Source: Rikenella sp. | GTDB taxonomy: Bacteria > Bacteroidota > Bacteroidia > Bacteroidales > Rikenellaceae | Length of the DNA: 43,919 nucleotides | Reading direction: 5' to 3' | NCBI GenBank assembly: GCA_022511025.1 | Contig: JAFLSI010000004.1 | Span: forward strand, 4,329-48,247 | Shown: piece after piece, positions 5,005-43,227 of the stretch | How positions within the stretch are numbered: position 1 is the stretch's first letter | Layout: each line of letters starts with the position of its first letter | The notes under the pieces: generated by a model | Database searches by the model: none | What the model was told of the DNA's origin: nothing | Seen by the model: the letters and a program-made list of their open reading frames with translations, nothing else | Program-made: the position numbers and the translations under genes

Positions 5005-5007
5005 AGT

Positions 5008-5020: not shown

Positions 5021-5113
5021 ATGTAAAACAAAAATTGTCAAAGACAATTATACAACTTTTCTACTCAAAAACAAAATATTCAGACAGATCTATCTTTCTT
5101 TTATCTCCCCGCA

Positions 5114-7242: not shown

Positions 7243-7269
7243 ATTTTCAGGGTGTTTACTACTATGCGA

Positions 7270-7277
7270 CAAAGATA
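7270..7277 (-). promoter_or_regulatory. Putative -7 element for lepB
   Basis: TATCTTTG on the minus strand, about 27 nt upstream of the chosen lepB start. No clear -33 element. Confidence 0.4.
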
Positions 7278-9836: not shown

Positions 9837-11678
9837 ATGAACGACCGCTTCCCTACCCACCTGTCGCGCACAATCGCCGGGGCCGTGATTTTGGCCCTTG
9901 TCGGAGCCGTCGCCGTCGTTTCGTACCGGTACATCGACCCGACCATCACCTTGCGAGATTACTATGTCCGGTTCGTGATCGGGATCGGCGCGGCCGTCGC
10001 TTTCCTCTGTCTGTGCCAAACCCGGAGGATCGACTGCTGCGTCGCCGACCTACTGATCCTGCTGTTCGGAGCCTATTGCACCGCCAACGGCTGGTTGTCC
10101 GGCAGCGAGCCGGACAACCAGCCTCCCGTCTTCATCCTGAGTCTTTCCCTGTACTTCACCGTACGCATCTTCCTCGCCTTCTGCCCGAAAATCGCACAAG
10201 GAATCCTGCTGGCCATCCTGCTCTCCGGACTCTACGAAGGATTCGTCGGCCTGCGGCAGCTGTTCGGCGTCCAAGTTTCGGCACATCCGCTCTACAAATT
10301 CACCGGCACCCTGCACAACCCCGGCCCCTACGCCGGATACATCGCAGCCGTCGCCTGCATCGCCCTCTGCTTCATCCTGCGGAACTACCGGAACATACGG
10401 CTCGTGAAAACACCCCATCCGACCCGATTCATCCGACAAAACCTGACCGTCAGGAACGGACTGTTCGGCGGCAGCTGTTTGATGCTTGCGGTCTGTTGTC
10501 TGCTGCTTCCGGCATCGATGAGCCGGTCGGCTTGGCTGAGTTTGGCTCTGACAGGCAGCCTCATCCTCCTGCGGGAGACCGGAGCGGGACAACGGCTCCG
10601 ACAGTTCTGGCGCGAACACCGGAGAGCAGGACTCACCCTGATGCTGTTGAGCTTCGCTCTGCTGACAGCGGTCGGCATCGGGACCTACAGCCTGAAACAG
10701 GGTTCGGCCGACGGCCGGCTTTTGATCTGGCAGGTCTCCGCCCGCTTGGCCAGACAGCACCCGCTGACCGGAATCGGCACGGGCAGATTCGCCCCCCGAT
10801 ATGCCGAAGCGCAGGCCGAATATTTGGCCACCCTGCCCGAAGCGGCCCCCGAAATTCAGGTGGCCGGCACCCCCGACTACGCTTTCAATGAATACCTCCA
10901 CCTGCTGGTGGAACAGGGAGGGATAGGCTGCCTTCTGGCTCTGTCAGTGCTGTTCTTCACCTTCCGGCATCTCCCGCGCGACAACCGGGAGTTTCTCTAT
11001 GCAGCCGTCGCCCTGCTCATCTTTGCCCTGACCTCTTATCCCTTTCACCTATGGCCCACCTCGATCCTGTTCCTCCTCAGCCTCGCCGTCCTGAACAGCG
11101 GCCGGAGAGGGGTCGACGGCAAACCGGCGCTGCTGTTCTTGCTGCCGGCGGCAATCGCGTTTTATGCCTGGTGTTGGCCGAAATGGAGCGAGGAGCTGAA
11201 AGCCCAGTCCGAGTGGAACCGGCTGCGCCCGCTGTACCATGCGAAACTCTATCGGACCGTCGTGCCAGACTACGAAAAACTCTACGGGCAGCTGAACGGC
11301 GAGGCCCGCTTCCTCTATGAATACGCCTATGTGCTCAACCAGCTCGAACGCTACGCCGAGAGCAACCGGATCATCGACCGGGGGATCGGGTTGGACAGCG
11401 ATCCCATGTTCTACAACATTCGGGGGAACAACTGCCGGGCATTGAAAGAGTACGACCGGGCCGAATCCGATTACCGCCACGCCTATGCCCTGCTGCCCAA
11501 CCGGTTGTATCCGCTCTACCTGCTGACCCGGCTCTACTTCGAACAGGGAGACACCCTCCGAGGGGAGAGGGCGGCCCGTGCCGTTCTGGAGTTCCGGCCC
11601 AAGGTGTCCTCCCCGGCTACGGCCAGCATGAAAAGCGAAGCGGAAAAACTGTTGAACGAGGTGGCGAAACGGGAATAA
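9837..11678 (+). CDS. O-antigen ligase/Wzy-like multi-TM protein with C-terminal TPR region
   Basis: 613 aa, many TM segments, the motif SRSAWLSLALTGSLILL...GRLLIWQVSARLARQHPLTGIGTGRFAPRYAEAQAEYL (Wzy_C-like), and TPR-like repeats at the C-terminus. Confidence 0.85.
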   Translation: MNDRFPTHLSRTIAGAVILALVGAVAVVSYRYIDPTITLRDYYVRFVIGIGAAVAFLCLCQTRRIDCCVADLLILLFGAYCTANGWLSGSEPDNQPPVFILSLSLYFTVRIFLAFCPKIAQGILLAILLSGLYEGFVGLRQLFGVQVSAHPLYKFTGTLHNPGPYAGYIAAVACIALCFILRNYRNIRLVKTPHPTRFIRQNLTVRNGLFGGSCLMLAVCCLLLPASMSRSAWLSLALTGSLILLRETGAGQRLRQFWREHRRAGLTLMLLSFALLTAVGIGTYSLKQGSADGRLLIWQVSARLARQHPLTGIGTGRFAPRYAEAQAEYLATLPEAAPEIQVAGTPDYAFNEYLHLLVEQGGIGCLLALSVLFFTFRHLPRDNREFLYAAVALLIFALTSYPFHLWPTSILFLLSLAVLNSGRRGVDGKPALLFLLPAAIAFYAWCWPKWSEELKAQSEWNRLRPLYHAKLYRTVVPDYEKLYGQLNGEARFLYEYAYVLNQLERYAESNRIIDRGIGLDSDPMFYNIRGNNCRALKEYDRAESDYRHAYALLPNRLYPLYLLTRLYFEQGDTLRGERAARAVLEFRPKVSSPATASMKSEAEKLLNEVAKRE

Positions 11679-23522: not shown

Positions 23523-25013
23523 TCAGAACCTGCGTGCCGTTCCCCGGTCGTTGCGGAAGATGCGCCGGTAGTAGGTTCGTCCCGTGCGTTTGTCGAAAAG
23601 GCAGTAAATCCCGCCGTCCGGAATCCCCGACACGGTATAAACCGGCGAGCCGCCCCCGGCCGATTGGCAAACCGTTGCCTCCGACCGCTGCCACCCTTCG
23701 GGAGTCCAATACGCCACGTATAAACCCCCGGCATCCAACGTGTCGACATCCCGGGGCCGGATCAAAGAGGTTATATCGATCGTTACCGGCCGGCCGGTAT
23801 CCGCCCCGTAGTAGTGCAGATTGCCCCGCGGATCGAGCCGGAACGGACGCCCCGCCTGTCGAACGGACCGATCCGACACATAGACCGGCAAATACAAAAT
23901 TCCCCGTCCGATCTCTTTGAAAAGGGCTTTCCCCTTCGTCGGCGGAGCTTCGGCCGGCACGGCCGGCCGCCAGCGTTCGTTCCCGAACACCGCCAGCGCT
24001 GCCCGTTCCCCCGCCTCAGGGGCCGAGTCGAATGCCACGGTCGGGGTCGATACGGCTACATATTCCGACGTAACATCCCGATAGTACGGGTTGCCGAACC
24101 GCTCGGCCGATTGCGGTTGCGGTTCGAACTCCTGACGGAAAATCTTCGGCGGACCGGCCGCCAACCATTCGCCCGTGTCGAGCATCACCGGATTGCCCTC
24201 CTCGTCGAAATAGACCGCCTCGACATGTCCCCCGTCCGAGGTTCCCCACACCGGGATCACATCTTTCGTGGCGGCAATCCCCATCGCCCGCAAGGCCAGC
24301 ACATAGATGTCGGCCGTCGAATTGCACTCGCCCCGACCGCAAGCGAACGCCTCCTGCGGCGTGAAGGCCGGTTTCAGCATCAAAGCCTCCGCATGGAATC
24401 CGAACCGGCTCTTTACGTCCCGAATAATCAACCGGGCGACGGTGCGTATATCTTTCGGACCCGCCAGCGTGTCGACCATCGGCTCGTAACGGTCCCGAAA
24501 GAAGGCCCGCCAGTCGGTCAGCTCTTCGACGTCGATCCGGTAGGGCAGGACATAATGCAGAAAAAGCGAATCGGAATAGTGAGCCGCCCACGGATACCGC
24601 TCTCGTGCCGCGAATGCCCGGTCGATATTCCGGATCAGGTAGTCTGCGGTCATCGTCTCCGCATCGGCTTCGGTCCGGTACCGGACCGAAAGCCCGGCCG
24701 AGTCGAGTACCTGCCGGTAGTTTTTCCCGGTAATCTCCGGCCGGTAGAGCGAAAAGCCCTCCGCCACTCTCCCCGACGCGTCGAGCAGGTCGAACGTATA
24801 GGTATAGTGTCCCCGGAGGTTCTCCAGCAGAAAAGCGGCCGCAGCGAGCCGTTCCGGTTCGCCGGCATAATGCTCCGCCACCCGGAGCATCTCTCCGTTC
24901 CCGGTCGCCTCGGCCGCCCGACGCGCCCGATGCAATGGCCCGTCGGAACAGCCGACCCAAGCGAAAACCCCGCTCAGCAACCAAACGACAGCGATATACC
25001 TGCGCATAATCAT
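23523..25013 (-). CDS. Transglutaminase-like lipoprotein
   Basis: Start MIMRRYIAVVWLLSGVFAWVGCSDG (lipobox). Transglutaminase core CGRGECNSTADIYVLALRAMGIAATKDVIPVWGTSDGGHVEAVYFDEEGNPVMLDTGEW (Cys, His, Asp). The start overlaps the stop of the upstream HlyD gene (ATGA). Confidence 0.85.
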   Translation of the reverse strand: MIMRRYIAVVWLLSGVFAWVGCSDGPLHRARRAAEATGNGEMLRVAEHYAGEPERLAAAAFLLENLRGHYTYTFDLLDASGRVAEGFSLYRPEITGKNYRQVLDSAGLSVRYRTEADAETMTADYLIRNIDRAFAARERYPWAAHYSDSLFLHYVLPYRIDVEELTDWRAFFRDRYEPMVDTLAGPKDIRTVARLIIRDVKSRFGFHAEALMLKPAFTPQEAFACGRGECNSTADIYVLALRAMGIAATKDVIPVWGTSDGGHVEAVYFDEEGNPVMLDTGEWLAAGPPKIFRQEFEPQPQSAERFGNPYYRDVTSEYVAVSTPTVAFDSAPEAGERAALAVFGNERWRPAVPAEAPPTKGKALFKEIGRGILYLPVYVSDRSVRQAGRPFRLDPRGNLHYYGADTGRPVTIDITSLIRPRDVDTLDAGGLYVAYWTPEGWQRSEATVCQSAGGGSPVYTVSGIPDGGIYCLFDKRTGRTYYRRIFRNDRGTARRF

Positions 25014-26257
25014 TCCCTGATTTTGAGTTTGGATTCGTCGCGGTAGCGGCTCATGTCGCTGACGATGACCGTTTCGCCCGGCAGCAACCCTTCGACCACC
25101 TCGACATATTCGTAACTGCTCTCGCCCAATACCACCGACCGCTTCCGCGCCACCCCGGCCGAGACCACCCACAGTTCGTACCGACCCGGCCCCCGGTAAT
25201 ACGACCGGTTCGCGATCCGCACCGCATCGTCCTTCACCGAGTTGATGATGAAAACATCCGCTTTCAATCCCGACCGCAATTTCGGGTCGTCGTTTTCGTC
25301 GAGCGCCACCGTGAACTTGATCTGTCCGTTCGCCACCGCCGGCACCACATTCCCCACCGACCCGGCGAGCTTCGTGCTCCCGAGCTCGACCACCACGCGG
25401 TTCCCCGGCGCGATCTTCTCGGCATAAGAATCCGCAATCTCTCCCTCGACCTTGAAGTGCGAGAGGTCCGAAACGATCGCCAACTGCGCCCCCTGAGCCA
25501 CCGTCGCCCCGATCTGATCGTTCACCCAAGTCAGCGTCGCCGACCGCGGCGCCCGCACCTGTGCATCGCCCATCGTCTTCCGGGCCAAGGCGAAGTTCTT
25601 TCGGGCGATGTTGTAATCCAAGTCCGTTACCCGCATGTCCGCTTCGGTATTTTTCACCAAATTGGCATACTTGAGCTTGAGCTGCTCGTACTGCATCCGC
25701 TGCACCGCCAGTTCCAGTTCGGCCTGCCGGATCTTGTCGGCCGTGCTGGCCCCGATGCTGTCCAAGTAGCGTTCGTTGCGCAACTGTACCTCGGACCGCT
25801 GCAACCGCATGCTGTCGATCCGGATCTGCATGGCCATCTCCGACAGCTGCGTTTCGGCATTCGACCGCTGTTGCTCGATCTTGCTGCGTTTCATCTCCAA
25901 CTCGTCGCGCTGACGTTCGAAGTCGGTGTTCGTCGCCGCCAAGTCGAGCCGCAGAATGGTATCCCCCGCTTCGAGCCGCTCGCCGGACTTGCGGTAGACT
26001 TCGAGCACTTTCGACGCCACGGGCGAAGCGATAATCTCTTCGAACAGCGGAACCACCTTGCCTGCCGCCGTAACCGACACCTCCAACACCCCCCGGTCGA
26101 CCGTCGAGAGGGTGATCGTCGAGGCATCGACCCCCGATCGCAGCACGCTCACCAACACAATAAACACGACAACGATTCCGGTTCCCACCGAGGCCAGTTT
26201 GACGATCTTTTTCCGCCGCCGCCGGCGAAGAATCTCCTGAGGTATTTGCGTATCCAT
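25010..26257 (-). CDS. HlyD/MacA-type periplasmic adaptor
   Basis: 415 aa, N-terminal TM, VSVTAAGKVVPLFEEIIASPVASKVLEVYRKSGERLEAGDTILRLD and long coiled-coil hairpin. Confidence 0.9.
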   Translation of the reverse strand: MDTQIPQEILRRRRRKKIVKLASVGTGIVVVFIVLVSVLRSGVDASTITLSTVDRGVLEVSVTAAGKVVPLFEEIIASPVASKVLEVYRKSGERLEAGDTILRLDLAATNTDFERQRDELEMKRSKIEQQRSNAETQLSEMAMQIRIDSMRLQRSEVQLRNERYLDSIGASTADKIRQAELELAVQRMQYEQLKLKYANLVKNTEADMRVTDLDYNIARKNFALARKTMGDAQVRAPRSATLTWVNDQIGATVAQGAQLAIVSDLSHFKVEGEIADSYAEKIAPGNRVVVELGSTKLAGSVGNVVPAVANGQIKFTVALDENDDPKLRSGLKADVFIINSVKDDAVRIANRSYYRGPGRYELWVVSAGVARKRSVVLGESSYEYVEVVEGLLPGETVIVSDMSRYRDESKLKIRE

Positions 26258-26275
26258 AGTGAATCCTATTTCCGG

Positions 26276-27781
26276 TTACAGGTCCATAAAGTCATAGACG
26301 ATCCGGCTCCGCGTCCCAAAGTCGAACAGCGTGATCTGCCGCAGGTTATACAGATAAAGCCACGAATAGTAGAGCTGGTCGATGTAGTTCCGCCGCGCAG
26401 TGTTTTCCTCGTTCTGCGCTGCATTGATGTCCAGGACGTTGATCTGCCCCATGACGAACGTCTCGAACGCGGTCCGGTACCTCTGCCGGGCCACGGTATC
26501 GGCCGTGCGGTACAAAGCGGTCAGTTCGCTCTGGTCCTGATAACGCTGCACGGCCATTACTACCGTCTGGTCGAAGTCGAGGTTGTCTTTCCGCACCCGG
26601 TGTTTCTCGACCTCGGCCTGCGACTTGGCCAGCTGCACCCGTCCGCGGCCCTTGCCCCAGTCGAGGATCGGAATCCGCACCCCTAAACTGGCCACCTGAC
26701 GATTCTGCAAATCCCGATAGCTCCCCCCGATCTTCGCATCGCTGCCCGTGAAACCCACCGAGGCATAGACATTCACCTGAAAGCCCCGTTCGACCCTCGC
26801 CTCGGCAATGATCTGCTGTGCCTCCAAAAACCGACGCCGGGTATTCGCCGTGATCGGATTGTTCTCCCGCGCCAGATCCATCACCTCGGCCAAATCCACC
26901 GGATAGTAAGGCGCCGCTTCCGGCACCTCCGCCTCGATCCACAGGTTGCCGTTCAACCCCAAGTAGTTCCGCAACGACTGGACGCGTTGTTCATAATCCT
27001 GCCGGGCCGTAACCACGGATGCCGTGGCATTCAGTTTGCCGAGCCGCAACTGCAACAGGTCGTTGTCCGAGATCAACCCCAAACGTTTCTTCCCTTCGGC
27101 AATATCGTACAGTTGTGTGGCATTCCGCAAGGTCTGCTCGGCTATCTCGAGATTGGAGGCTGTCAGCAGCAGGTTGAAATAGTGCTGGATGGTCTGAATC
27201 GCGACGGTCTCCATGTTCACGGCGAACTGCTGTTGCGCCTCGCGGTACCGCTCCGGTTCGATCTTCATCGACCACCGCAGCGGTCGAGAGGTTATCAACG
27301 GTTGTTCGAGCGTAACGACCGCCGGCACACTGAGCCAGCTGGTCCGCCGGTCGCCGTCTAACTGGTCGATACGTTGCAGCTGCGACTGGACGGAGATCGT
27401 CCCGCCCGTGTACGGAATGTTCTGACTCAGCGACAATCCGGCGTTTTCGGTCAGCAGACTGCTGGGTACGAACTCATAGCTCCCGTCCTCTTTCTGGTAG
27501 CTCGACAGCGATTTGTTCAGACTCGGCAGCGTCCCGTTGAAAGTGAGCGAGGGCAACAGCTCGGCTTTGTAGTTCCGATACCGCCAATACGCAGCCCGCA
27601 TGGTATTCTTGGCCACCATCGCATCCACCGACTGCACCGAGGCCAGCGCCAGTGCCTCGTCTAATGTGAGTCGCAACGTATCGACCGGAGCGGGTCCGGA
27701 TTCCCGGGTACTCGCGACAGACGGCGATTGGAAGACCGCCGCCAACAATCCGATAATGAGCCCAAGCGTACCCCGTTTCAT
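26276..27781 (-). CDS. TolC-family outer membrane efflux protein
   Basis: 501 aa: LTLDEALALASVQSVDAMVAKNTMRAAYWRYRNYKAELLPSLTFNGTLPSLNKS and C-terminal FVMGQINVLDINAAQNEENTARRNYIDQLYYSWLYLYNLRQITLFDF. Confidence 0.92.
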   Translation of the reverse strand: MKRGTLGLIIGLLAAVFQSPSVASTRESGPAPVDTLRLTLDEALALASVQSVDAMVAKNTMRAAYWRYRNYKAELLPSLTFNGTLPSLNKSLSSYQKEDGSYEFVPSSLLTENAGLSLSQNIPYTGGTISVQSQLQRIDQLDGDRRTSWLSVPAVVTLEQPLITSRPLRWSMKIEPERYREAQQQFAVNMETVAIQTIQHYFNLLLTASNLEIAEQTLRNATQLYDIAEGKKRLGLISDNDLLQLRLGKLNATASVVTARQDYEQRVQSLRNYLGLNGNLWIEAEVPEAAPYYPVDLAEVMDLARENNPITANTRRRFLEAQQIIAEARVERGFQVNVYASVGFTGSDAKIGGSYRDLQNRQVASLGVRIPILDWGKGRGRVQLAKSQAEVEKHRVRKDNLDFDQTVVMAVQRYQDQSELTALYRTADTVARQRYRTAFETFVMGQINVLDINAAQNEENTARRNYIDQLYYSWLYLYNLRQITLFDFGTRSRIVYDFMDL

Positions 27782-27797
27782 GACATTCCGTAACAGA

Positions 27798-30224
27798 TTA
27801 TTCGTTGTGCAACGCCTCGGCCGGACTCACCCGAGAGACCTTGTATGCCGGGTACCACGCGCTGAAGACCGAGAAAAAAAGCATCACGGCCAGCGTCGCC
27901 ACCACTCCGAGCACCACGACTCCGTTCCACGAGTAAACAAAAACAGCCAACAGGAATCCCGGCACCGCTGCCAACAAAGTCAGCACGACGCTCTCAGTCA
28001 TCACCATCCCCACGAGCCGGTTTTTGGTCGACCCGACAGCCCGACGCAAGGCGAACTCCTCGACCCGCTTCCTCGAGTACAACCAAAACAACCCGAAGGT
28101 CCCAACAAACCCGAAAATCAAAAAAAATACCGTCGGAATCCCCTGGGCAATCAATGGTGCGGTTCCTTTCAGAATCTGTTCCGTTTTGTAGCGTTCCATG
28201 TCGGCCACATACGGTTCCACCCGGTTGTCCTCGCCGATCTCCTTCTTGAACCGCCGGTAAAACTCGTCCGAAAACTCCTCCTTGTACTGCGCATCGGTCA
28301 GCCGCGCACAGCTATAATTGTCCCCGGTAGTTCCCATGCTCTGTAAAAAGTAAGAGGTACTGACCAACGCCATCGGTTTCGACTCCGGATCGAAAGCATT
28401 TGTCCGGAAACCGGCCAAAACACCGACTACACGGAATTCCCGACCATCATAAAAGTTCAATTTCTTACCGACCGCTTCATGCCAGCCGAGCGAGTCGGCA
28501 AACGAGCGCGAAATAATGATCGGTGTGTAATCGGTCTGCCCGGTCGGCAACCATTCGCCCTCGTCCAACACCGGCCTCAAGACTTCGCTCGCCGTCGGAT
28601 CGGCCGTCGTCATGAGTACCGGATAGTTTTTTCCCTCCGACTCGAAAGTGAAAATCATCCCGGTTGAAGGCGCACCGTAAGGCAACAGATTATTGGTCCG
28701 TGTTACCCCCTCGACATACGACAACTCTTCGCTCATCTCCTTCCCGATGCGATTCAACACCTGAATTCCCTCTGCGACACTATTCCAAAAATTATAGCCT
28801 GGCGGTGTGGTGAATCCGAAAACCATCGTATTGTCGGTGTCGAGCAACCCCGGCGCCCGAAACACCCGAATCTTATTGAAAACGGAGACCATACAGAACA
28901 TCAATACTCCGAATACCAATGCTTGTTCGATGTAAATACCTATGAATTTTTTTCGTCGTCCGAGCACCGACGTATCCATCGAGTTCTGCTCACCGCCTTT
29001 GAGGGTCCCGGCGATATTGCGCCGCACGGCCACCCATGCCGGTATCCCCCCCGACATCAGCGCGAACAAGACCGACAGCGGCAGTACCCCCAGCAGAACC
29101 ACCCACCAGTTCATCGCCCCCAACAAGCTCGCCCCCTCGCCCGTAGTAACGTCCAAAATATAGGTTTCGATCAGGTCAAACGTCGGATAGACCAGCAACA
29201 ACCCCAGCACGGTCCCGATTAGGACCAACACCAGATTTTCGCTGATCATCTGCAAAAAAGCCTGCCCATTGGAAGCTCCCAACGCCCGCCGCAGGGCGAT
29301 CTCTCCGGCCCTGGTCTCGATGTTGGCCGTACTCAACGTAACGATATTCACGGCCGGAATCACCAACAACACCAGAATCACGACCCAAATCCCGTAGGTC
29401 AGCATCCGGTCGCCAATCAAGGCCGTAATCTCTTCGCGCACGGTATGCAATTCGGTCGGTTCGACGATCTCTTTGTCCTGTTGTCCCCAATGGTGCCTTG
29501 CCGCCCGCATCACATTCTCTTTCATCTCCGCCACCGGCATCGTGGCGGGAAACAGGTATTCGATCGTATAGTCGCTCCACCCCGACGGAACCCCTTTGTT
29601 ATAAACGTAGGGCAACCAAAGCGTACTCCATTCGTTGGCCGACAGCGACGAGAAGTCGGCCACCACGCCGATAATCCGGAACGTGTTCCGTTGCAGGTCG
29701 ATGGTTTGGTCCAACGCCTCCTCCGGACTGCCGAAATACTTGCGGGCGTTGCTCTCCTTGATCACCGCCACCGGGGTAGCCGTCTGGTAGTCTTCGATCA
29801 TAAAAGCACGACCGGCCACGAAGTCGAAGTCGTGAATATCCCAATAATCTCCATTGACATAATTGGCCACGACGTTCTTGAGCTTTCCGCCGATCACCGG
29901 ATTGACCGATTCGACGTGCGACACCCCCATTTTCTCATACCCCTTCACCAAATCCCGCATCGAAACCACATCCTGCACTTCCCATTGACAGTAAGCTCGC
30001 CAATCGTGTTCCGGTCCGTAGTCGGTGTACATCCGCCCCAACCGGATCGTCCGGTCGGCATTGCCCAGCGGAGCTTCATTGCTGCTCACCGTATGGACCA
30101 GCTGCAGAAGAATAATGACGAAAACGAACGTCAGCGCCGTCCCCAAGATACAGAACAACGCATAGGCCTTATTGTGCCGGATATGGTAGAGTGCCGAACG
30201 AAGATAGTCCGATAACCGTTTCAT
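27798..30224 (-). CDS. ABC transporter permease, FtsX/MacB type
   Basis: Start chosen at MKRLSDYLRSALYHIRHNKAYALFCILGTALTFVFVIILLQL; FtsX signatures TANIETRAGEIALRRALGASNGQAFLQMI and YSRKRVEEFALRRAVGSTKNRLVGMVMTESVVLTLL. Confidence 0.92.
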   Translation of the reverse strand: MKRLSDYLRSALYHIRHNKAYALFCILGTALTFVFVIILLQLVHTVSSNEAPLGNADRTIRLGRMYTDYGPEHDWRAYCQWEVQDVVSMRDLVKGYEKMGVSHVESVNPVIGGKLKNVVANYVNGDYWDIHDFDFVAGRAFMIEDYQTATPVAVIKESNARKYFGSPEEALDQTIDLQRNTFRIIGVVADFSSLSANEWSTLWLPYVYNKGVPSGWSDYTIEYLFPATMPVAEMKENVMRAARHHWGQQDKEIVEPTELHTVREEITALIGDRMLTYGIWVVILVLLVIPAVNIVTLSTANIETRAGEIALRRALGASNGQAFLQMISENLVLVLIGTVLGLLLVYPTFDLIETYILDVTTGEGASLLGAMNWWVVLLGVLPLSVLFALMSGGIPAWVAVRRNIAGTLKGGEQNSMDTSVLGRRKKFIGIYIEQALVFGVLMFCMVSVFNKIRVFRAPGLLDTDNTMVFGFTTPPGYNFWNSVAEGIQVLNRIGKEMSEELSYVEGVTRTNNLLPYGAPSTGMIFTFESEGKNYPVLMTTADPTASEVLRPVLDEGEWLPTGQTDYTPIIISRSFADSLGWHEAVGKKLNFYDGREFRVVGVLAGFRTNAFDPESKPMALVSTSYFLQSMGTTGDNYSCARLTDAQYKEEFSDEFYRRFKKEIGEDNRVEPYVADMERYKTEQILKGTAPLIAQGIPTVFFLIFGFVGTFGLFWLYSRKRVEEFALRRAVGSTKNRLVGMVMTESVVLTLLAAVPGFLLAVFVYSWNGVVVLGVVATLAVMLFFSVFSAWYPAYKVSRVSPAEALHNE

Positions 30225-30265
30225 AAACCTTGGTTTTAGATGAATCTTTTGGGGGTTGAACCCTC

Positions 30266-30934
30266 CTACGCCTGAATCCGGCCGTCTTCCATCCGCACGA
30301 TGCGAGAGGTCTGCTCCGCAATTTTGCCATCGTGCGTAACCATCACGATCGTCGTCCCTTCCGCATTGAGCTGCTTGAGGATCGACATGATCTCGGCCCC
30401 CATCTTCGAGTCCAAGTTCCCGGTCGGCTCGTCGGCCAGGATCACCTCCGGCGCACCCATCAAAGCCCGCGCAATCGCCACCCGCTGACACTGGCCCCCG
30501 GAAAGTTGCGTGGGAAAGTGCTTCATCCGGTGCGCCAAGTCCACCTTTGCCAACACCTCCTCTGCCCGTTTGCGCAACTCAGCCCCGCTCATCTCTTTCG
30601 GCCGGTAGTGCATCGGCAGCAGTACATTGTCCACCACGTTCAACGCAGGAATCAGATGAAAACTCTGGAAAATGAAGCCGAGTTTCCGGTTTCTGAGTTG
30701 TGCGAGCTGCTTGTCGCTCATCCCGGCGCTGTTCACCCCATCAATGGAGAGTGTCCCGGAGGTCGGCTCGTCCAACAGACCCATAATGTTGAGCATCGTG
30801 GACTTCCCGCACCCGGACGGTCCCATAACGGAGACAAACTCTCCCTTATCGATCGTGAGGCTCACGCCGTCCAACGCGCGGGTCTGAACCTCGCTCGTGT
30901 AAAATACCTTGCTGATGTTGTCCAATGTAATCAT
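30266..30934 (-). CDS. ABC transporter ATP-binding protein (MacB/LolD type)
   Basis: Walker A MGPSGCGKSTML, signature LSGGQCQRVAIARAL, Walker B VILADEPTGNLD. Confidence 0.95.
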   Translation of the reverse strand: MITLDNISKVFYTSEVQTRALDGVSLTIDKGEFVSVMGPSGCGKSTMLNIMGLLDEPTSGTLSIDGVNSAGMSDKQLAQLRNRKLGFIFQSFHLIPALNVVDNVLLPMHYRPKEMSGAELRKRAEEVLAKVDLAHRMKHFPTQLSGGQCQRVAIARALMGAPEVILADEPTGNLDSKMGAEIMSILKQLNAEGTTIVMVTHDGKIAEQTSRIVRMEDGRIQA

Positions 30935-31032: not shown

Positions 31033-33381
31033 CTAATTAATTAACGGCAATAGACTACGAGATAAAGGGGATGGATAATGTCCATCATGCCAAGATAAAA
31101 CATTATAAATACGATAAAGCCGCATTGCTTGATCTGAAAAAACGTATTGTTGATTATTGAGAACTTGTTCATATGATGCAGCCTTAGCTGTGTCATTCTT
31201 GAGAATCCAGAAATGCCTTAATTTCTCAGAGATAAGGGGATCCCATTGATCTAAAATATAAGCTTTGTGATAACACTGATAGGCTCGATCAAGGTTGTTG
31301 GCTTCGTAAATACTTCCTAACGTCATCCATGCACGACTTAGGTTAGGATAATGTTGAACAACAGATTCTAAAATTTGAGTTGCAAGAATAGTATCTTTCA
31401 ACTGTAATTCTATGCTTGCCCATTTTGCCAAAGTTTGATAATTATGAGTTTGGTGTGCCTCTTGTTTAAGTTGATCCCGGGCTAAAAGTAATAGCTGTTT
31501 AGTTTCTTGTGGATGATATTTTGTAAAATCAGAAAAGAATTTGGTATACACAAGGCTCGGAGCAACAATCAAGGCCTTTGCATATAATTTGATGGCTTCG
31601 GCCACAGAACAATTTTGTTCATGGTATTTTCCTAAACTAATCAAGTATAAAGGAGTATGAGGGGCCAAATACAACGCTTGCTCCAAGTGTTGTTTTCCGG
31701 CCAAAGTATCTTTTAATGCTAAATGAATCCAGCCTGCATTATGCCAAAACATAGGCTCCTTAATTTGACATTGCGAAGCAGTACTGCATACTTTGAGAGC
31801 CTCGGTTAAACTTGGAAAGGATATTGGGGACTGAAATAATGCACAGCTGTCAAAATTATCATGTTTTGATTCAACAAGGAACAATGCTTTATTATTCCAT
31901 AATATAGGATTACTAGGATCAATTGTAATTGCGGCCTCTATTTGCTGTAATGCAATTGTTCGATCTCCTTTTTCGATAGCCTCGATCGCACGATTGTTGT
32001 ACGATTGTACATCGGATTGCTTTTGCTGTAAATGCAAAACTTCCGGCACAAAAAATACAGCTAAAAACAATATAATTTGTTGGCTTGGCATGAAAAAATT
32101 GACAGAATGTTTTGACTTTGCCAAGGAGGGTAACATTAAAATCAACAAAACCGTAAAATATAGGCAGATCGATTGTTGAAATAATGTTGTAAAAGTCAGT
32201 TCTCGTATCAAAAAAGAGCATAACCCAGCCAATAATACGATGGTGATAAAAGCTTGGTCTACATGACCGGTTTTAATTTGAATGCGGATATATCTAATTG
32301 GTCGAGCAATGATAACAATCAGCAATATGAGATAAATAACAAAGCCTACAATGCCTTTTTCCAAGATGAGTTGTAATAAAATATTATTTACTCTACCGGT
32401 ATATGAAGCACCTGTTTGGTTTGATATCATCAATGATTCAAGTTTATAATTACCATTCCCAATACCTTGCCAAGGATGTTCTCTAATTATTGTTCCTATT
32501 TGCTCCCATCGATCAAGACGTCCCATAGCACTTTGCATTTGTACACTGTTGACATCCGTTGTGGTCAAACTAAACAGTGGTTTTGAGATTGGTAAAAGAC
32601 AAAGTAAAAATGTGAAAAAACAACCTGTTGTCATCCAACGAAATACTTGACGGCATCCCAAATGGACATGACATTGAATTGCGGCAATGACTACAATAAG
32701 TATAAATAGAATCCAAGCCAGAATAGCTCCTCTTGACAGGGTGTAAATAATAGCCAAACTGATTATCCAAGGACACAGAAAGGTGATATATTTCCAATAA
32801 GACGAAGTATGAAAAATGGTATAAATGGAAAACGGAAGAAATACCAGTAAAATAGCAGCCCAATCATTAATCATTAAACCATTTGCATCTAACAAGAATC
32901 GTAAGGACACCAAGTCATGGGGACGAAAACCTTCCTGCAACATGGTGTCATAAAAATCATAACAGGTGTATAACAGACTGACAGCTACGATAATCCCAAT
33001 AAAAGTGGCTCCATAGGCCAACCATTTCAATCCTAAGTCATTGAGATATGCTCGGCCTCCGAGATAAACTAAAATAGCTGCAAGTAGGTTGGTTGTTTCA
33101 AATGAAGTATATGATAATTGCTTTGTACAATAGTGAAGAAATAACTCAAAACAAAAGATGAATATAAAAATAATATCAGTTATCGTAATAACAGACTGGG
33201 ACACTTTGATGGACTGCTTGCGCTGAATGGCAATAAGATCATTAAGTTGTAGAACAACTAACGCAGGTAAAACAGGCAATAAAAACACATCGGTAAGGTT
33301 ACCTTGAGGTAAAAACAGTAAATATCCCGTGATTAGGAATAATCCAACCATAAGATACTGTTTGAATCGTATTGTTAACAT
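31033..33381 (-). CDS. O-antigen ligase/Wzy-like multi-TM protein with C-terminal TPR region
   Basis: 782 aa, about 10 TM segments, MGRLDRWEQIGTIIREHPWQGIGNGNYKLES (Wzy_C-like), then TPR repeats (AIEAIEKGDRTIALQQIEAAITIDPSNPILWNNKALFL). Confidence 0.85.
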   Translation of the reverse strand: MLTIRFKQYLMVGLFLITGYLLFLPQGNLTDVFLLPVLPALVVLQLNDLIAIQRKQSIKVSQSVITITDIIFIFIFCFELFLHYCTKQLSYTSFETTNLLAAILVYLGGRAYLNDLGLKWLAYGATFIGIIVAVSLLYTCYDFYDTMLQEGFRPHDLVSLRFLLDANGLMINDWAAILLVFLPFSIYTIFHTSSYWKYITFLCPWIISLAIIYTLSRGAILAWILFILIVVIAAIQCHVHLGCRQVFRWMTTGCFFTFLLCLLPISKPLFSLTTTDVNSVQMQSAMGRLDRWEQIGTIIREHPWQGIGNGNYKLESLMISNQTGASYTGRVNNILLQLILEKGIVGFVIYLILLIVIIARPIRYIRIQIKTGHVDQAFITIVLLAGLCSFLIRELTFTTLFQQSICLYFTVLLILMLPSLAKSKHSVNFFMPSQQIILFLAVFFVPEVLHLQQKQSDVQSYNNRAIEAIEKGDRTIALQQIEAAITIDPSNPILWNNKALFLVESKHDNFDSCALFQSPISFPSLTEALKVCSTASQCQIKEPMFWHNAGWIHLALKDTLAGKQHLEQALYLAPHTPLYLISLGKYHEQNCSVAEAIKLYAKALIVAPSLVYTKFFSDFTKYHPQETKQLLLLARDQLKQEAHQTHNYQTLAKWASIELQLKDTILATQILESVVQHYPNLSRAWMTLGSIYEANNLDRAYQCYHKAYILDQWDPLISEKLRHFWILKNDTAKAASYEQVLNNQQYVFSDQAMRLYRIYNVLSWHDGHYPSPLSRSLLPLIN

Positions 33382-34429: not shown

Positions 34430-36637
34430 TTAATTACCCAATTCAAGTTGATTTCTTACCAAATTATAATAATGACCTTGAAGTCGAGTCAGTTCTGTAT
34501 GAGTCCCTTGTTCTACAATACGACCTTGATCCAAGACAACAATCTTATCCGCATTCTTAACAGTGCTCAATCGATGTGCAACGACAATAACCGTCTTATC
34601 CTTAAACAGTTGAGTCAGATTTTCCATAATCGTCCGCTCATTATTGGCATCCAAGGCATTTGTGGCTTCATCAAAGAGTAAATAGTCAGCATCTTTATAC
34701 GCAGCTCGGGCGATTAACATACGTTGTCTTTGTCCACTGCTCAGACCGTGTCCATCCGCTCCTATCTGAGTATCATATCCTAAAGGAAGCGCATTAATAA
34801 ATGAATCAATATTACCTACTTGTGCTGCAGCTCGGACACGATCCATATTAGGAACCTCATCTGAAATCGCAATATTGTTAGCAATTGTATCTGAAAAGAT
34901 ATAACCATCTTGCATGACAACGCCACAGTGTTTTCTCCATAAACTGTCGTTATATTGCGTCAAGGGAATATTCCCCACCATTATACTCCCTTCTACAGGT
35001 TGGTAAAATCCGAGAATTAATTTTAACAAAGTTGTTTTGCCACTACCACTCGTCCCTACAATCGCAGTTGTTTGATGCGCTGGAATAGTTAGATTTATTT
35101 GGTTTAAAACTTTTTCGGATTGTGGACCTTCGTATTGAAATACGACATTTTTAAAGCAAATATCTTGAGCGGATGGCAGGTAGTTGATTTTGTTTGTTTG
35201 TTTACTCTCTTCATCCGAATTGTTTTGGACTTCATCGAGTCGTTCCATACTTAGTTTGGCATCTTGGGCCGTTTGGATGAACCCGATAAATTGGACAATA
35301 GGGGCATTCAATTGCCCAATAATATATTGTAATGCCATCATCATTCCGAGGGTCATTTGTCCTTCAATGACGACTTTGGCTGCTAAAAACGAGATTAAGA
35401 TATTCTTAGCTTGATTAATAAATAACCCTCCTACTTGTTGAACTTGTTCTAAAGCCAATCCTTTTATTTCAATTCTGTATATTTGAGCTTGAATGCGCTC
35501 CCATTTCCACCGTTTTTGTTTCTCACAAGTATTGAGTTTAATATCTTGCATCCCGGAGATCATCTGAACCAAACTGGATTGATTTGTAGCTGCCTGTTGA
35601 AAGCGTTTATAGTCTAATTCCCGCCGTCGCTTAAGAAAGATTAGAACCCATCCAACATATAAGGAGCTACCCAGCAGAAATATCCCAAGGATTAGCAAGT
35701 TATACCAAGCCATAACAATGCTATATGTTACGAAAGTGATCAGGGCCATTGTAATGCTGATGCATGTGCCAGTCAGAAAGTTCTGAATTCGTTTTGAGTC
35801 ATCAATCCGTTGAAGCAGATCCCCAATTCGTTTAGAGTCAAAAAAAGCGATCGGAAGCTTCATCAATTTGCTTAAAAAGCCCGAAACTAATGTAATCCCG
35901 ATGCGCGTAGTAATATGCAGCATTAACCAGCTGCGGATGAGTTCATTTACAGTCTGGCCTATAGTCAACATTACTTGGGCCGTTAAGATCAGAATGATAA
36001 AATGCAGATCATCATTACCGATCCCTATATCTACCATTGATTGTGTCAAAAAAGGTAGAATCAAGCTAATAATACTGCCTGTTAGTAATCCCAGTAGAAT
36101 TTGAAAAATGTATTTCCGATAAGGTTTAAGATGCCGGAGAATATTAATCAATGAAAGTCCATTAGTGGTAATACTGGTTTCGTCATCTTGAAAAAAACTC
36201 GGAGTTGGCACTAAAAGTAAAGCTAAACCTACAGGGATATTCTCTACAGTAGAGGTTGACCAGCATTTTAGAAATTCATCTTTGTTATATTGCAACAATC
36301 CACTATCAGGATCAGCAACATAAATTATAATACTTCCATTTTTGCGTCGACGAATCTGATACACCACCACAAAATGATGCTGATTCCAATGAACGATACA
36401 AGGTAGAGTAACAGAAGAATATAATTGCTCCCAAGTAATACGCACCCCTTGACTGCGGAATCCAATAGTTTCTGCAGCCTCACTTATCCCAAGCATCGAA
36501 ACTCCTTCTTTCGTGATGTAGCATTTGTTACGTAATGTTTCCAAAGAATAGTGTCGACCATAAAATCGCGCAATCATACGTAGACAGGCCGGACCGCAGT
36601 CCATAACATCTAACTGGGGATAGAATGGAAACTTCAT
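34430..36637 (-). CDS. Peptidase C39-containing bacteriocin ABC transporter (leader-cleaving exporter)
   Basis: N-terminal C39: FPFYPQLDVMDCGPACLRMIARFYG...HWNQHHFVVVYQI...VADPDSG. ABC: GTSGSGKTTLLKLILGF, LSSGQRQRMLIARA, YLLFDEATNALD. Confidence 0.95.
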   Translation of the reverse strand: MKFPFYPQLDVMDCGPACLRMIARFYGRHYSLETLRNKCYITKEGVSMLGISEAAETIGFRSQGVRITWEQLYSSVTLPCIVHWNQHHFVVVYQIRRRKNGSIIIYVADPDSGLLQYNKDEFLKCWSTSTVENIPVGLALLLVPTPSFFQDDETSITTNGLSLINILRHLKPYRKYIFQILLGLLTGSIISLILPFLTQSMVDIGIGNDDLHFIILILTAQVMLTIGQTVNELIRSWLMLHITTRIGITLVSGFLSKLMKLPIAFFDSKRIGDLLQRIDDSKRIQNFLTGTCISITMALITFVTYSIVMAWYNLLILGIFLLGSSLYVGWVLIFLKRRRELDYKRFQQAATNQSSLVQMISGMQDIKLNTCEKQKRWKWERIQAQIYRIEIKGLALEQVQQVGGLFINQAKNILISFLAAKVVIEGQMTLGMMMALQYIIGQLNAPIVQFIGFIQTAQDAKLSMERLDEVQNNSDEESKQTNKINYLPSAQDICFKNVVFQYEGPQSEKVLNQINLTIPAHQTTAIVGTSGSGKTTLLKLILGFYQPVEGSIMVGNIPLTQYNDSLWRKHCGVVMQDGYIFSDTIANNIAISDEVPNMDRVRAAAQVGNIDSFINALPLGYDTQIGADGHGLSSGQRQRMLIARAAYKDADYLLFDEATNALDANNERTIMENLTQLFKDKTVIVVAHRLSTVKNADKIVVLDQGRIVEQGTHTELTRLQGHYYNLVRNQLELGN

Positions 36638-37555: not shown

Positions 37556-39697
37556 TTAATTCCGATGTAAAGCAAAAATAAATTCATTGGTGAAAGGAGT
37601 AGTCGGTGATTTAATTGGATCAAACAGAAACTCCATGACAGAAAAATAAGGTCGTAACCCTATTTCTCTAAACATAGCCCGAATACTGATAGGATTGTGC
37701 AGATCAACCAATAATTCATGATCCGAGTTAGCAATGATAAATTGTTGGGGTAATTTTTGTCTTTGTGATAGTTCTAACATAGCACACATTAAGGATTGAT
37801 CATCTAATTCCGCATTAGGCAAATCACTGGTTTTTAGTCGCCATTGTTGTCGACTAAGAACATGTCCTCTATAGGTCACACGGGGTAGATAGTCGACTAT
37901 ATTTGCCCAATTACCCCATTGAAAATCTAAATTTGTCCGTAACCCTTGTGATTGTAAATCACAAAGGAATCTGTATATAGGTAAACTACGCCATACATAG
38001 TTGTGGGCAGAAGTTAATCTTGGAATGATTTCTTTGTTCAATTTGCATGAGCGTAAATGAACTCGATCCTGTCGTATGCTAATCATTAAATCCGATATAG
38101 GAATTTGTTGATCCGCTGCTAAATGGGAATGCCCCAGATATGGAATTTCATATTCACGCAGTATAGGCCGAAACAAGATATTGCCTATCCGAGCTGCAGG
38201 TAAGTGGATAACTTCTGCAACAATTGCATCGGGATATAATTCAGACTCTTTCTGTGTGATAGCCTTTACTAATTGATAGACAGAAGGGTCCAAATGTGAG
38301 AATCTGCTAATAAGATTGGCGGCAGAAGTTCCACCCACAGAATGAATATAAAATTGACAGGGAGAATCGGATAACATTCGACACATGACTTGCAATGTTT
38401 CCGGAAATGTACCTTGTGTATCGGCATTCGCAGGCAAATCTCGCTCATCTAATATGATCTCTGTTTCTCCCTTTTGTCTTGCCGCTATATATTTGTTATA
38501 CAAAGCATCATTTAAGATTACCGGTGTGAATTGTGGATCTTGAGTCGGCAAACGAAGATCATCGATAAAACGGTTAATATCTGCTTGATTTTCATTTATT
38601 GGATACCCTAAGCCTAAATCATTATCTAAAACTTGAGCCAAAGGCATTTCTTGTTGTTCATAACGTTCAAGAAAAGCAGATTTAAATAACTCCAATGGGG
38701 TATTGGAAAATCGATAAGATGTATATTTCGTTAAAAACGAAATTATATCTAACAATTCTTTTTGAATTTCATAGTTAAGGGTTATTTGGGCTGGTTTATA
38801 TAAGTCGGTTTGGATTAGATATTTGGGATTATATTCGCAATCCAATTTTTCGACTTCTTGTGTCAGGGCATTGTAGAGTGTAGGTATCTCAGCCGGAATT
38901 GAATTATCAATCGAATGAAGTAAATCTTGAATGCGGCTTAAGGAATACTGATACGACTCCGTATTCTGTAAAGAACGAAGTCTGTGTAACAAATATTCTA
39001 AGGGATCCTCTCCCGTAACTGCGATTTCCAATTCATTTTTCAACAACTGAGATTCGATAATTTCAGCAATAAAACTTTTGGCATCTTCCAGTGTTATTTG
39101 CTCTGTGATAATATGTTGAGCCAATTCTTCAATAGTGGCTCCAGAACGCGCCGCATGTAAAACGGTTGTTAAATACTCTGAGTGCTCAACACTACAAGTC
39201 CGATGAATTCTTTGGGTTTGATGATAAATGTATTCAACATAGCGTAAAGTACCCCCGAAATTATAAATACTGTCATTAGGAAAATATCGTAGTTGATTCG
39301 CTATGACAGGCTGTTTTGTCAAACGATCAATCAGATCGGATAACAGGCTCATATCTAATCGGGAACAAGGCCTGTAATTTGCTATTTCAGGTAGTATGAT
39401 TTTTGTGTCTGCAGCAAAGTACCCAACTGAACACCCTGCAAACAAACCAAATGGTGTACATCTGGTTTGTGAGCGAGAGATGTATTTATAAAGTGTAATA
39501 TCTATCCTTAATTGTTCCTTATTGAACTCGTGAGCTTTGATTTTTTCTCTATAAAAATCAGGAGAAGACAGGAACAAGGCTCCGTCAAAAAAATCTCGTT
39601 GGCATTCGTCGGTTATTACTCCTACCCGATCGGTCCAAGGGAGGCTAGGCGTCCTGACGATAAACGAAGGAAATAAGGAAAAAGGGCAAGAATTCAT
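37556..39697 (-). CDS. Lantibiotic dehydratase (LanB N-terminal, glutamylation domain)
   Basis: 713 aa: FSLFPSFIVRTPSLPW...YKYISRSQTRCTPFGLFAGCSVG...YRPCSRLDMSLLSDLIDRL...LRYFPNDSIYNFGGTLRYVEY is typical LanB-N. The start overlaps the upstream gene by 4 nt. Confidence 0.93.
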   Translation of the reverse strand: MNSCPFSLFPSFIVRTPSLPWTDRVGVITDECQRDFFDGALFLSSPDFYREKIKAHEFNKEQLRIDITLYKYISRSQTRCTPFGLFAGCSVGYFAADTKIILPEIANYRPCSRLDMSLLSDLIDRLTKQPVIANQLRYFPNDSIYNFGGTLRYVEYIYHQTQRIHRTCSVEHSEYLTTVLHAARSGATIEELAQHIITEQITLEDAKSFIAEIIESQLLKNELEIAVTGEDPLEYLLHRLRSLQNTESYQYSLSRIQDLLHSIDNSIPAEIPTLYNALTQEVEKLDCEYNPKYLIQTDLYKPAQITLNYEIQKELLDIISFLTKYTSYRFSNTPLELFKSAFLERYEQQEMPLAQVLDNDLGLGYPINENQADINRFIDDLRLPTQDPQFTPVILNDALYNKYIAARQKGETEIILDERDLPANADTQGTFPETLQVMCRMLSDSPCQFYIHSVGGTSAANLISRFSHLDPSVYQLVKAITQKESELYPDAIVAEVIHLPAARIGNILFRPILREYEIPYLGHSHLAADQQIPISDLMISIRQDRVHLRSCKLNKEIIPRLTSAHNYVWRSLPIYRFLCDLQSQGLRTNLDFQWGNWANIVDYLPRVTYRGHVLSRQQWRLKTSDLPNAELDDQSLMCAMLELSQRQKLPQQFIIANSDHELLVDLHNPISIRAMFREIGLRPYFSVMEFLFDPIKSPTTPFTNEFIFALHRN

Positions 39698-40737
39698 AAA
39701 AGATCATTTTTGGCTTGTTTCCATCGATGGTAGACAACCTGGATATTGGACAAAGTAAATTGGACTTTCTGTTTGCTTTGGGTGTAATTTGCCCAATAAT
39801 TTACTCGACTCGGAATTAATACCGTGTTCAGTCTGGGTTTTTGGTTCTGATATTCTACGAAATCCGCATTGATTTGAAATTCGCCTTGAAATCCTTTATT
39901 GAAGATATTGAACTCGATTCGACGGATATGGCCGGTATCCCGATTGAGTTTTACCAAAATCTGATAAGATACGCCACCGGACTGCGGAGCGATATCGGGG
40001 TAAACAATCCGAAAAACATGTTCGTCATGTTCTTCACCAAGATACCGATAGCGTGGGTTGTAAGGCCCGAGTTGTCCTTGTGCGATATAACCGATGACCG
40101 AATGAATACAATCTAATCCCAAATGAAGTTGGTGATGGATAATAGGATTCAATTGAGAGGTGTCATTGGCCGTAGTCAGTTGATATTGATTGTTGAAGAA
40201 AGCATAGGGAGAAGAGAAATATGGGTTTGGATCCGGAGAAGAGAGGCGATTGCCGGCCTCGAGTTTACCGCTAATCCGCGCATTTCGTGCCGTATTTTGT
40301 ATGTGCATGGAAAAATCAGCGGTCAATTTGGCATCATAATTTATGAAAGGTACTTTTCTGAAGTATTTCTGGAAGAGTCTTTTTTCATTTGCAGGCGCTG
40401 TAACCGTAACTGTTTCTGCAGTTAATACCGTAAAATGTTCTTTCAGGGAAAACCGGTATTCACCTTGTTTTCGCAGCTTGGCAGTGTACACAACTTGTGC
40501 AGGTTCTGTTCCGACACAGATCGCTTTTATGGTATCTCCTTCCTGAATCTTTTCCGTTGAAAGGGTAGCTCGTCCTGTCGAGTCGGTGATCGCCACAGCT
40601 GAGCCATTCACATAAATATAGGCAAATGGTAGATCCTCTTTTTCGTGATTACGAACATGCAAACGTAGATCCTGAGCCTGCGTGGAAATAGATCCGAAGC
40701 CACAAAAAACAACAAAAAAAGCAATGTAATATTTCAT
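39694..40737 (-). CDS. Secreted CarboxypepD_reg-like domain protein in the lanthipeptide operon
   Basis: MKYYIAFFVVFCGFGSISTQAQDLRLHVRNHEKEDLPFAYIYVNGSAVAITDSTGRATLSTEKIQEGDTIKAICVGTEPAQVVY: signal peptide followed by a CarboxypepD_reg-like beta-sandwich. Confidence 0.75.
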   Translation of the reverse strand: MKYYIAFFVVFCGFGSISTQAQDLRLHVRNHEKEDLPFAYIYVNGSAVAITDSTGRATLSTEKIQEGDTIKAICVGTEPAQVVYTAKLRKQGEYRFSLKEHFTVLTAETVTVTAPANEKRLFQKYFRKVPFINYDAKLTADFSMHIQNTARNARISGKLEAGNRLSSPDPNPYFSSPYAFFNNQYQLTTANDTSQLNPIIHHQLHLGLDCIHSVIGYIAQGQLGPYNPRYRYLGEEHDEHVFRIVYPDIAPQSGGVSYQILVKLNRDTGHIRRIEFNIFNKGFQGEFQINADFVEYQNQKPRLNTVLIPSRVNYWANYTQSKQKVQFTLSNIQVVYHRWKQAKNDLL

Positions 40738-40815: not shown

Positions 40816-41040
40816 TTAGAATGCACACTTTTCCCAAGAACATTCTTTTGCATCCAGCGTCTTACAGGTATCTTGACTCCACTGCGGTTCACAATTACGG
40901 GTTTTTTCACAACAAGTCAAATGTGTACACTCCCCGATAGTGGTGGTCCATCCGCCTTTAGCGTCTTTGAGCTCGTCGTTGTTCAACGTTCCGATAACCT
41001 CTTTGTGAAGAGATAATCCTGTGAGTTTTTTCTTTTCCAT
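40816..41040 (-). CDS. Class I lanthipeptide precursor with GG-type leader (Bacteroidota natural product precursor)
   Basis: MEKKKLTGLSLHKEVIGTLNNDELKDAKGG | WTTTIGECTHLTCCEKTRNCEPQWSQDTCKTLDAKECSWEKCAF. Leader with L.L.K..I..L..DEL...KGG; core has 7 Cys and 10 Ser/Thr. Embedded between LanC and LanB genes. Confidence 0.92.
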   Translation of the reverse strand: MEKKKLTGLSLHKEVIGTLNNDELKDAKGGWTTTIGECTHLTCCEKTRNCEPQWSQDTCKTLDAKECSWEKCAF

Positions 41041-41093: not shown

Positions 41094-42977
41094 CTATGAG
41101 AGCATCATCGCTTCATCCCAATCCGTATTTTGCTTGTCGAAAATCGAAAGCAGGGCAAGTCCGACCCCAACACTACCTTCCAACAAGGAATCCGAGGCCA
41201 CCGGGTTTGAATTTTCTGTTGAAATCCTAAAAAAGTAGCCGGTATCGGATTCCGGGGTTTGCATCTGTAATGTTACTTTAATCCAGTATATCGCGGCATT
41301 ACGAAACTCGACACACCCTGTCTGATGGAACAATTTATTATACATGTGGATAAGGCCTGCAGTTCCATGACAAAATTGGGCGTCACAAATATTAACTTGC
41401 TCCAAATTCTGTCGAGATGTTGTTGCAATTAGTTTATCCAGAAAGATCTTTTGCCAAGCGGTATTCTTAGTTAGAATGGCGTGTCTATAAATAATAAACA
41501 AAGCGGATAAGTCGCCATAACACCAAGCCAATCTCGAGGTTATGGGACGTATATTTTGCTTTTTATGATATACATCACAATAAACAGAATAAGGATAAAA
41601 TGATCCTGCTTGATCTATCGGTTGTTCATTCAAGAGATAAAATCGGACCAATCCATCTCCCAATTGACAACTTAATTCAGGTTCAATGTTTAAATGATAA
41701 CATTGATCTAGAAAATATAAAATGCCAGCAGTCCCATGAGCTAACCCAAAATCATAATTTGGAGCTTTATATCGACTATGCACAGGCCACAATAACTCGC
41801 CGTCTGCTCCTTTCTCCATCTTTTTCTGTATGTGGCGTAATGAATATTGTAGATCCGGAATAGAGTGGCGACGTATAAAATATCGTGCAATACTTAGCAT
41901 GCCATGCATTACATCAAACATATCATATCTGACAAGATTTTTCATGTGCATACGAAGCGTAGCATCTAACAGATCAAAACAACTTTGTTCTGTATCGATT
42001 AAATCTTTTTGCGTCAAATAAGATATTAACCATCCAAAACCGGCCAAACCATCGCAAAATGTAGGGCATAGCTCTTCATGAGTAGTTATATATTCTAAAG
42101 TCTTATCTAAAAAAGCATTTAATTTAAGAGAATAACGTTCATTTTTAGTATATAAATATAATTGCGCCATAAAAAGCGCTATTCCTGTCGTTCCTGTATA
42201 AAGACCAAAGTTCTCAATATCAGAATTATTAGTTAGATAATAATCCGCAATACGATTGACTGAATTTTTGACAGCAGATCCAAGATCATGTTCTGGCCAA
42301 TCAACAAAATTCATAAATTTATTCCCAGAACGGTATATTTCGCTTAAAGGACGAACAGGCGTAAAGAGATCGATATCTAAATCACTCTGTGTAGATGGAT
42401 TTATAGATCGACAAAATACGAGTCCCGATAATGGATACTCAAGACTTCCTTTTATGGGAAAAACTATTTCTGATTTGCAATGAGCCAAACGAAAAAGCCT
42501 TGCTTCATGACTGAAACCCGAATTAGAGTCGTCCACAACAAAATAATAAGAACCTTGATCGAAAGTTCGGGTAAAAGTAACGGCAAATATTACGGAGTCG
42601 GATTGTAAAGCATTTATAGAATCCATACTCCACACAGGCGAAACGGGTATCGGAATTTCATTGGAATGTAACAGTAATCCCCAAACGGCACTTATGTGAT
42701 TTTCCGATAAAGCATCCAAAAAAATGTTTTGAGTACATGTCGAAGTCGAGCGAATGTATAACATCAATTTACTGGCGACCGGCATATTCGACAATGCGAG
42801 ATTATCGTTGTTGGAAGAATCAACGATGATTATACCGTCGCAACAAGGTTGTATGCCGGTAATAAAGGCCAATAGTTGATCGGTATTCGATCGATGTTCG
42901 CAAAATACAATTAGCCTGTGTTTTTGCTGTAAAAAATCGGCAGGCGCTCTATATAAATATCGGATGCCGGCAGCCAT
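41094..42977 (-). CDS. LanC-like lanthionine cyclase with N-terminal extension of about 210 aa
   Basis: The C-terminal domain carries the LanC motifs FGLAHGTAGILYFL (G.AHG), RLAWCYGDLSAL (WCYG) and AQFCHGTAGLIHMY (CHG Zn ligands). The N-terminus has LIVFCEHRSNTDQLLAFITGIQPCCDGIIIVDSSNND, unlike standard LanC. Confidence 0.92.
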   Translation of the reverse strand: MAAGIRYLYRAPADFLQQKHRLIVFCEHRSNTDQLLAFITGIQPCCDGIIIVDSSNNDNLALSNMPVASKLMLYIRSTSTCTQNIFLDALSENHISAVWGLLLHSNEIPIPVSPVWSMDSINALQSDSVIFAVTFTRTFDQGSYYFVVDDSNSGFSHEARLFRLAHCKSEIVFPIKGSLEYPLSGLVFCRSINPSTQSDLDIDLFTPVRPLSEIYRSGNKFMNFVDWPEHDLGSAVKNSVNRIADYYLTNNSDIENFGLYTGTTGIALFMAQLYLYTKNERYSLKLNAFLDKTLEYITTHEELCPTFCDGLAGFGWLISYLTQKDLIDTEQSCFDLLDATLRMHMKNLVRYDMFDVMHGMLSIARYFIRRHSIPDLQYSLRHIQKKMEKGADGELLWPVHSRYKAPNYDFGLAHGTAGILYFLDQCYHLNIEPELSCQLGDGLVRFYLLNEQPIDQAGSFYPYSVYCDVYHKKQNIRPITSRLAWCYGDLSALFIIYRHAILTKNTAWQKIFLDKLIATTSRQNLEQVNICDAQFCHGTAGLIHMYNKLFHQTGCVEFRNAAIYWIKVTLQMQTPESDTGYFFRISTENSNPVASDSLLEGSVGVGLALLSIFDKQNTDWDEAMMLS

Positions 42978-43041: not shown

Positions 43042-43227
43042 ATCTTTTTATTAGAAATTTTATTCGATTATAATTTTTACAAGTAAATAAATTGGCAACT
43101 ACATACAAATCTACAACAATGGAGTTACCAAATCAAATCAGTACATCAAAATATATAGACGGGTATTTGATTCTTTTACAGATGAATAGATGAACACTGT
43201 TTAGTCAACCGTCTCAGGGGACAGCAT

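Follow-up and report, generated by a model that had tools for sequence, protein, structure and literature searches.

The locus considered here raises a simple question: does a short, Cys-rich ORF on the minus strand of a 43,919-nucleotide stretch of Rikenella sp. DNA (hereafter the window, taken from a 1.87-Mb draft genome that is 91% complete) encode a lanthipeptide precursor, and if so, what would be made from it? The ORF begins with ATG, spans positions 40816-41040 and encodes 74 amino acids, all as set out in the preliminary description, and the sequence that follows its GG site, WTTTIGECTHLTCCEKTRNCEPQWSQDTCKTLDAKECSWEKCAF, is indeed a 44-residue core with 7 Cys and 10 Ser/Thr (8 Thr and 2 Ser), the TCC and TTT motifs included. 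The leader carries an LxLxKx5L motif (as LSLHKEVIGTL) and ends in GG, and residues 1-30 match the NCBIfam family NF038153 (lant_leader_L1a) with E=4.7e-7 and 29.9 bits, above the curated cut-off of 22 bits for that family. A leader profile built from relatives detected no second precursor in the window. Given the leader match, its position as the sole precursor-like ORF in the window and the complete lan operon to which it belongs, the ORF is not a chance reading frame, and the class first proposed for it, a lanthipeptide precursor with a GG-cut leader, is upheld by the NF038153 leader and the operon. On the sequence evidence we consider it very probable that the ORF encodes a class I LanA of the Bacteroidota type, matured by the LanB, LanC and C39 proteins of the same operon.

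The lan genes are arranged on the minus strand in the order LanC, LanA, CarbD, LanB, LanB-C, C39 transporter, HlyD and Wzy/TPR (Table 1), all co-directional and separated by intergenic gaps of -17 to 78 bp; all of these ORFs are full length and their catalytic motifs look intact. The glutamylation and elimination domains that mark a class I LanB-type dehydratase are carried by two adjacent genes, whose products align with NisB over RSxxRxTPFG and FxRYxDPxxHIRLR...ExERYG. LanC likewise possesses the Zn ligands C, C and H that mark a class I cyclase: alignment to other LanC proteins, including a solved LanC, placed the motifs RLAWCYGD (C486 region), FCHG and LAHG, with WCYGD beginning at residue 485 and FCHG at residue 535, so that the CYG/CHG ligand motifs are kept. 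The GG site and the C39 peptidase-transporter expected for the NF038153 type are both present in the cluster. The promoter-like pattern upstream of LanC has 3 exact matches in the window versus 0.41 expected. In a sister genome (G222) the segment L131:8998-10466 joins the first ~345 aa of LanC, including its extra domain, to the TPR tail encoded by the Wzy/TPR gene. A single deletion of all that lay between them would explain this most simply, and the scar suggests that LanC to Wzy/TPR formed one ancestral unit.

Table 1. Features of the lan operon in the window and its closest precursor relative.
Feature	Coordinates	Strand	Evidence or remarks
Wzy/O-antigen-ligase-like membrane protein with TPR tail, final gene of the operon	31033..33381	-	G222 deletion scar
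HlyD-type periplasmic adaptor, 334 aa	33442..34446	-	also present in typical Bacteroidota clusters
PCAT (C39 peptidase + ABC exporter)	34430..36637	-	PF03412 E=1.8e-33
LanB glutamate-elimination half (Lant_dehydr_C; LanB-C), 292 aa	36668..37546	-	PF14028 E=6.3e-62
LanB glutamylation half (Lant_dehydr_N), 713 aa	37556..39697	-	PF04738 E=1.6e-144; aligned to NisB
CarbD, exported, signal-peptide-like N-terminus, weak CarboxypepD_reg-like domain	39694..40737	-	between LanA and LanB
LanA precursor, 74 aa	40816..41040	-	leader MEKKKLTGLSLHKEVIGTLNNDELKDAKGG + 44-aa core; NF038153 match
LanC cyclase, 627 aa	41094..42977	-	PF05147 E=7e-39; LANC_like domain residues 255-624
Degenerate glycosyltransferase-2 (GT-A) domain, LanC residues 1-235	42270..42977	-	profiles + alignment
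Bacteroides-type promoter-like site TTTG-N20-TAGATTTG	43106..43137	-	~129 bp upstream of LanC start
G208 precursor, 63 aa, ends GFTTFLGDCQSRFTCCVLPTSCALSTDCPS	L042:9900-10091		core 30 aa, 5 Cys

What was observed is the genes with their motifs, the order in which they stand and the statistics of residue spacing; that the enzymes act on the LanA peptide, how its rings are laid out, where it is cut and that it serves in competition between bacteria are inferences. The split LanB would glutamylate Ser/Thr residues of the core with Glu-tRNA and then carry out the elimination, LanC would add Cys thiols to the resulting Dha/Dhb to close rings, and the C39 domain would cut after GG while the 44-aa core is being exported, aided by HlyD and by an outer-membrane channel whose gene lies elsewhere. 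Action against neighbouring bacteria is the usual role of such clusters, and by analogy the peptide may act in this way, probably as a small antibiotic. By inspection, the LanA core lacks SxxxCTP(G/S)C, the ring A/B motif of lipid II-binding nisin-type lantibiotics (PMC7268733).

Is the core modified at all? A disulfide-rich peptide merely exported by the C39 transporter, and bypassed by LanB and LanC, would need just a GG leader and a C39 exporter, as unmodified bacteriocins do, and the many Cys and the CC pair of the core would suit it. Such a product is nevertheless highly improbable, as the leader belongs to a lanthipeptide-specific family, LanC and LanB stand on either side of LanA in a single operon that has no other candidate precursor, and Ser/Thr residues occur upstream of Cys far above chance across the family. 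The last point comes from 87 distinct core-like sequences gathered from 104 loci, in which 401 of 457 Cys have a private Ser/Thr 2-6 residues upstream, versus 256 ± 10 after per-core shuffling. A reverse-direction control, with Ser/Thr sought downstream of Cys, gave 305 versus 255 in shuffled cores, and part of the spacing signal is therefore local clustering of Ser/Thr and Cys. The excess persists in a smaller set restricted to one core per cluster (80/84 Cys versus 51 ± 4 shuffled). These statistics support the prediction of thioether rings with Ser/Thr N-terminal to Cys, while leaving the topology unfixed.

Other arguments made from the core alone fared less well. An odd number of Cys had been held to speak against disulfides, but 33 of the 87 related cores are odd and sibling peptides within one cluster carry 4, 5, 6, 7 or 8 Cys, and we have dropped parity as uninformative; the case against disulfides rests on LanB and LanC. 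Nor did the idea that CC and TTT signal an unusual ring topology find support, CC being present in 20/87 and TCC in 6/87 of the family cores. The expectation that Ser/Thr/Cys positions would be conserved was borne out in the nearest homolog (G208, below) but not beyond it: family cores vary freely, and the sole rule retained among them is a Ser/Thr a few residues ahead of Cys.

In the window core all 7 Cys have their own Ser/Thr 2-6 residues upstream (p=0.02), and the up to 7 rings with 3 spare Ser/Thr envisaged at the outset are arithmetically possible. The likeliest plan would be a row of short rings, most of them free of overlap and each with its Ser/Thr upstream of the Cys, for example T4-C8, T9-C13, T17-C20, S25-C29, T31-C37 and S38-C42, with C14 either part of an additional ring or left unbonded. 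A mixed product in which cyclisation is partial, some Cys remaining free or disulfide-bonded and C13-C14 possibly behaving differently, is a tentative but realistic prospect. The window core has room for only six short rings that do not overlap, with C13 and C14 competing for T9/T12, and refactored Bacteroidota clusters gave seven dehydrations but only three rings (PMC9993889); against this, a private Ser/Thr within 6 residues is available for every one of the 7 Cys, and sibling families match nearly all of their Cys too.

The feature that sets the cluster apart is found in its cyclase. A two-sequence profile of the LanC N-terminus matches the GT2 half of tandem GT2 proteins from other Bacteroidales (Pfam Glycos_transf_2; E 5.8e-7 to 1.9e-4), and profile-profile comparison also supports GT2 for residues 1-235 (probability 97%, E=1.5e-11). 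This assignment rests on profiles and alignment because structure predictions were of unusable quality (pLDDT 36 for the whole LanC, 33 for the N-terminal domain). The GT2 metal motif D-x-D-E is replaced by HSNE in the window LanC and by QSNE in the sister genome, which makes catalysis by the GT2-like domain doubtful. No such extension was found in 109 other LanC-domain ORFs (some of which overlap between loci). Besides the window genome, the fusion is seen at L131:9004-9798 in a same-genus genome, inside the deletion remnant, and by this comparison the GT2-LanC fusion is genus-restricted and the main unusual trait of the cluster. It is unlikely that the domain still works, either by glycosylating the core or, with the metal motif lost, by holding the substrate, in a cyclase architecture not previously seen; should it be functional, the genus would make class I lanthipeptides with that architecture. 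The GT2-like-fused LanC is flagged here for biochemical study. A separate departure from the usual cyclase was noticed at L039:11707-12870 (G186), where an otherwise similar lan cluster encodes a LanC-like protein without the zinc-ligand motifs.

The relatives of the cluster are distributed unevenly. A LanB resembling that of the window is present in 3 of 268 genomes of the family, host included, and in 26 of 394 genomes of the order, and at least 579 LanB-related stretches came up when GTDB genomes were scanned; the 80 retained are mostly from Bacteroidota and include one from Chitinophaga pinensis (L210). Typical Bacteroidota clusters comprise LanC, LanB, LanB-C, C39 exporter and HlyD genes. 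Relatives of the precursor itself were absent from viral contigs, plasmids and GTDB genomes at the search thresholds. Near relatives of the exact window core are few, and one is strong: G208, from the same family as the window genome, has a precursor whose leader and core are related to LanA, followed by a CarbD gene, but its core is shorter and its CarbD gene is broken into pieces. The likeness of the G208 core to that of the window exceeds what composition would give (core-only z=5.0, p=0.001); TTxxG[ED]C....TCC and a later Cys are shared. No LanB or LanC was found in G208, a genome that is 77% complete. A same-genus genome (G221) gave a precursor match with E=5.8e-4 and an internal stop. 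Weaker precursor matches in other family members (E 0.01-1, many with stops) were, G208 excepted, taken as chance. In G453 and G348, precursors arrayed in tandem include cores of the form TIPGTCC...C with a weaker likeness to the window core. At L077:2491-5435 and L078:3742-5594, at least 7-11 tandem lanthipeptide precursors stand ahead of LanB; their leaders are almost the same, whereas their cores are varied (4-9 Cys).

Given this distribution, one may ask if the cluster is decaying, or if its product serves something other than antimicrobial action (e.g. as a signal or surface factor). The operon is absent from most sister genomes and left a scar in G222, LanC is extended by a GT2 domain that has degenerated, and no known immunity gene accompanies the cluster. 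We regard this outcome as somewhat unlikely, seeing that the ORFs and motifs of the operon remain complete and that patchy presence is typical of bacteriocin-type loci.

An antimicrobial LanA product would call for immunity, and no known immunity family was found for the cluster. CarbD is possibly an immunity or surface partner. Members of this exported CarboxypepD_reg-like family occur, besides the window, at L042:9278-9883 (G208), L125:7414-8421 (G221) and L126:4807-5802, at times directly after a GG-leader Cys-rich peptide and at times within propeller/MacB loci. In G208 the CarbD gene adjoins the TCC precursor, whereas no such precursor was seen next to the CarbD homologs in G221 and at G208:C25, and CarbD is accordingly no more than a possible dedicated partner of LanA. 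Either CarbD or the downstream MacB-type exporter (27798-30934) might give immunity.

To what extent is such a cluster already known? It belongs to a large, already described family, and its kind is known. Class I LanA peptides of Bacteroidetes have been described with an LxLxKx5L leader, a GG site, a C39 protease and a split LanB (PMC7268733), all of which the window cluster shares, whereas its core, the GT2-like domain on LanC and CarbD between LanA and LanB differ. Refactored Chryseobacterium ChmA and Runella RuiA demonstrated that Bacteroidota LanA/B/C dehydrate and cyclise in E. coli; three thioether rings were confirmed for one such product, with the remaining dehydroamino acids open or glutathione-trapped, at least in E. 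coli (PMC9993889). These too are Bacteroidota class I LanA/B/C systems, but from different clusters and with fewer rings reported. The pinensin cluster of C. pinensis, a species with a LanB among the relatives given above, shares with that of the window a split LanB and a LanC in a Bacteroidota host. Pinensins are antifungal class I lanthipeptides, and their core is not known to be related to that of the window and is far poorer in Cys. No description of the window cluster was found in the literature searched, and its core sequence is new. The locus thus supplies the Alistipes family, in which such clusters are seldom found, with an intact cluster for a class I lanthipeptide, and the 87-core analysis puts the logic of ring formation in Bacteroidota cores to a statistical test. 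To our knowledge only a small number of lanthipeptides from Bacteroidota have been produced to date, which makes the window product worth making.

The composition of the operon differs from that of its surroundings. The GC content of its genes is 36-43%, as against ~51-62% over the window's initial 30 kb; for GC3, the four operon genes checked have 0.30-0.34 and three flanking genes 0.79-0.83, so that the lan operon looks acquired. A tRNA was sought at the contig end and was not confirmed. Directly downstream of the operon, at 25010-30934, are GC-rich genes for a MacB-like ABC exporter, HlyD and TolC, which are probably older residents and have a possible role in immunity or export. Further along, an NVEALA-like small protein (4726-5031), just below the Pfam cut-off, is encoded among 6-bladed beta-propeller genes, the gene of a signal peptidase (6322-7272) and a further gene of the Wzy/TPR type (9837-11678), an arrangement resembled in the same-genus genome G221 (L125).
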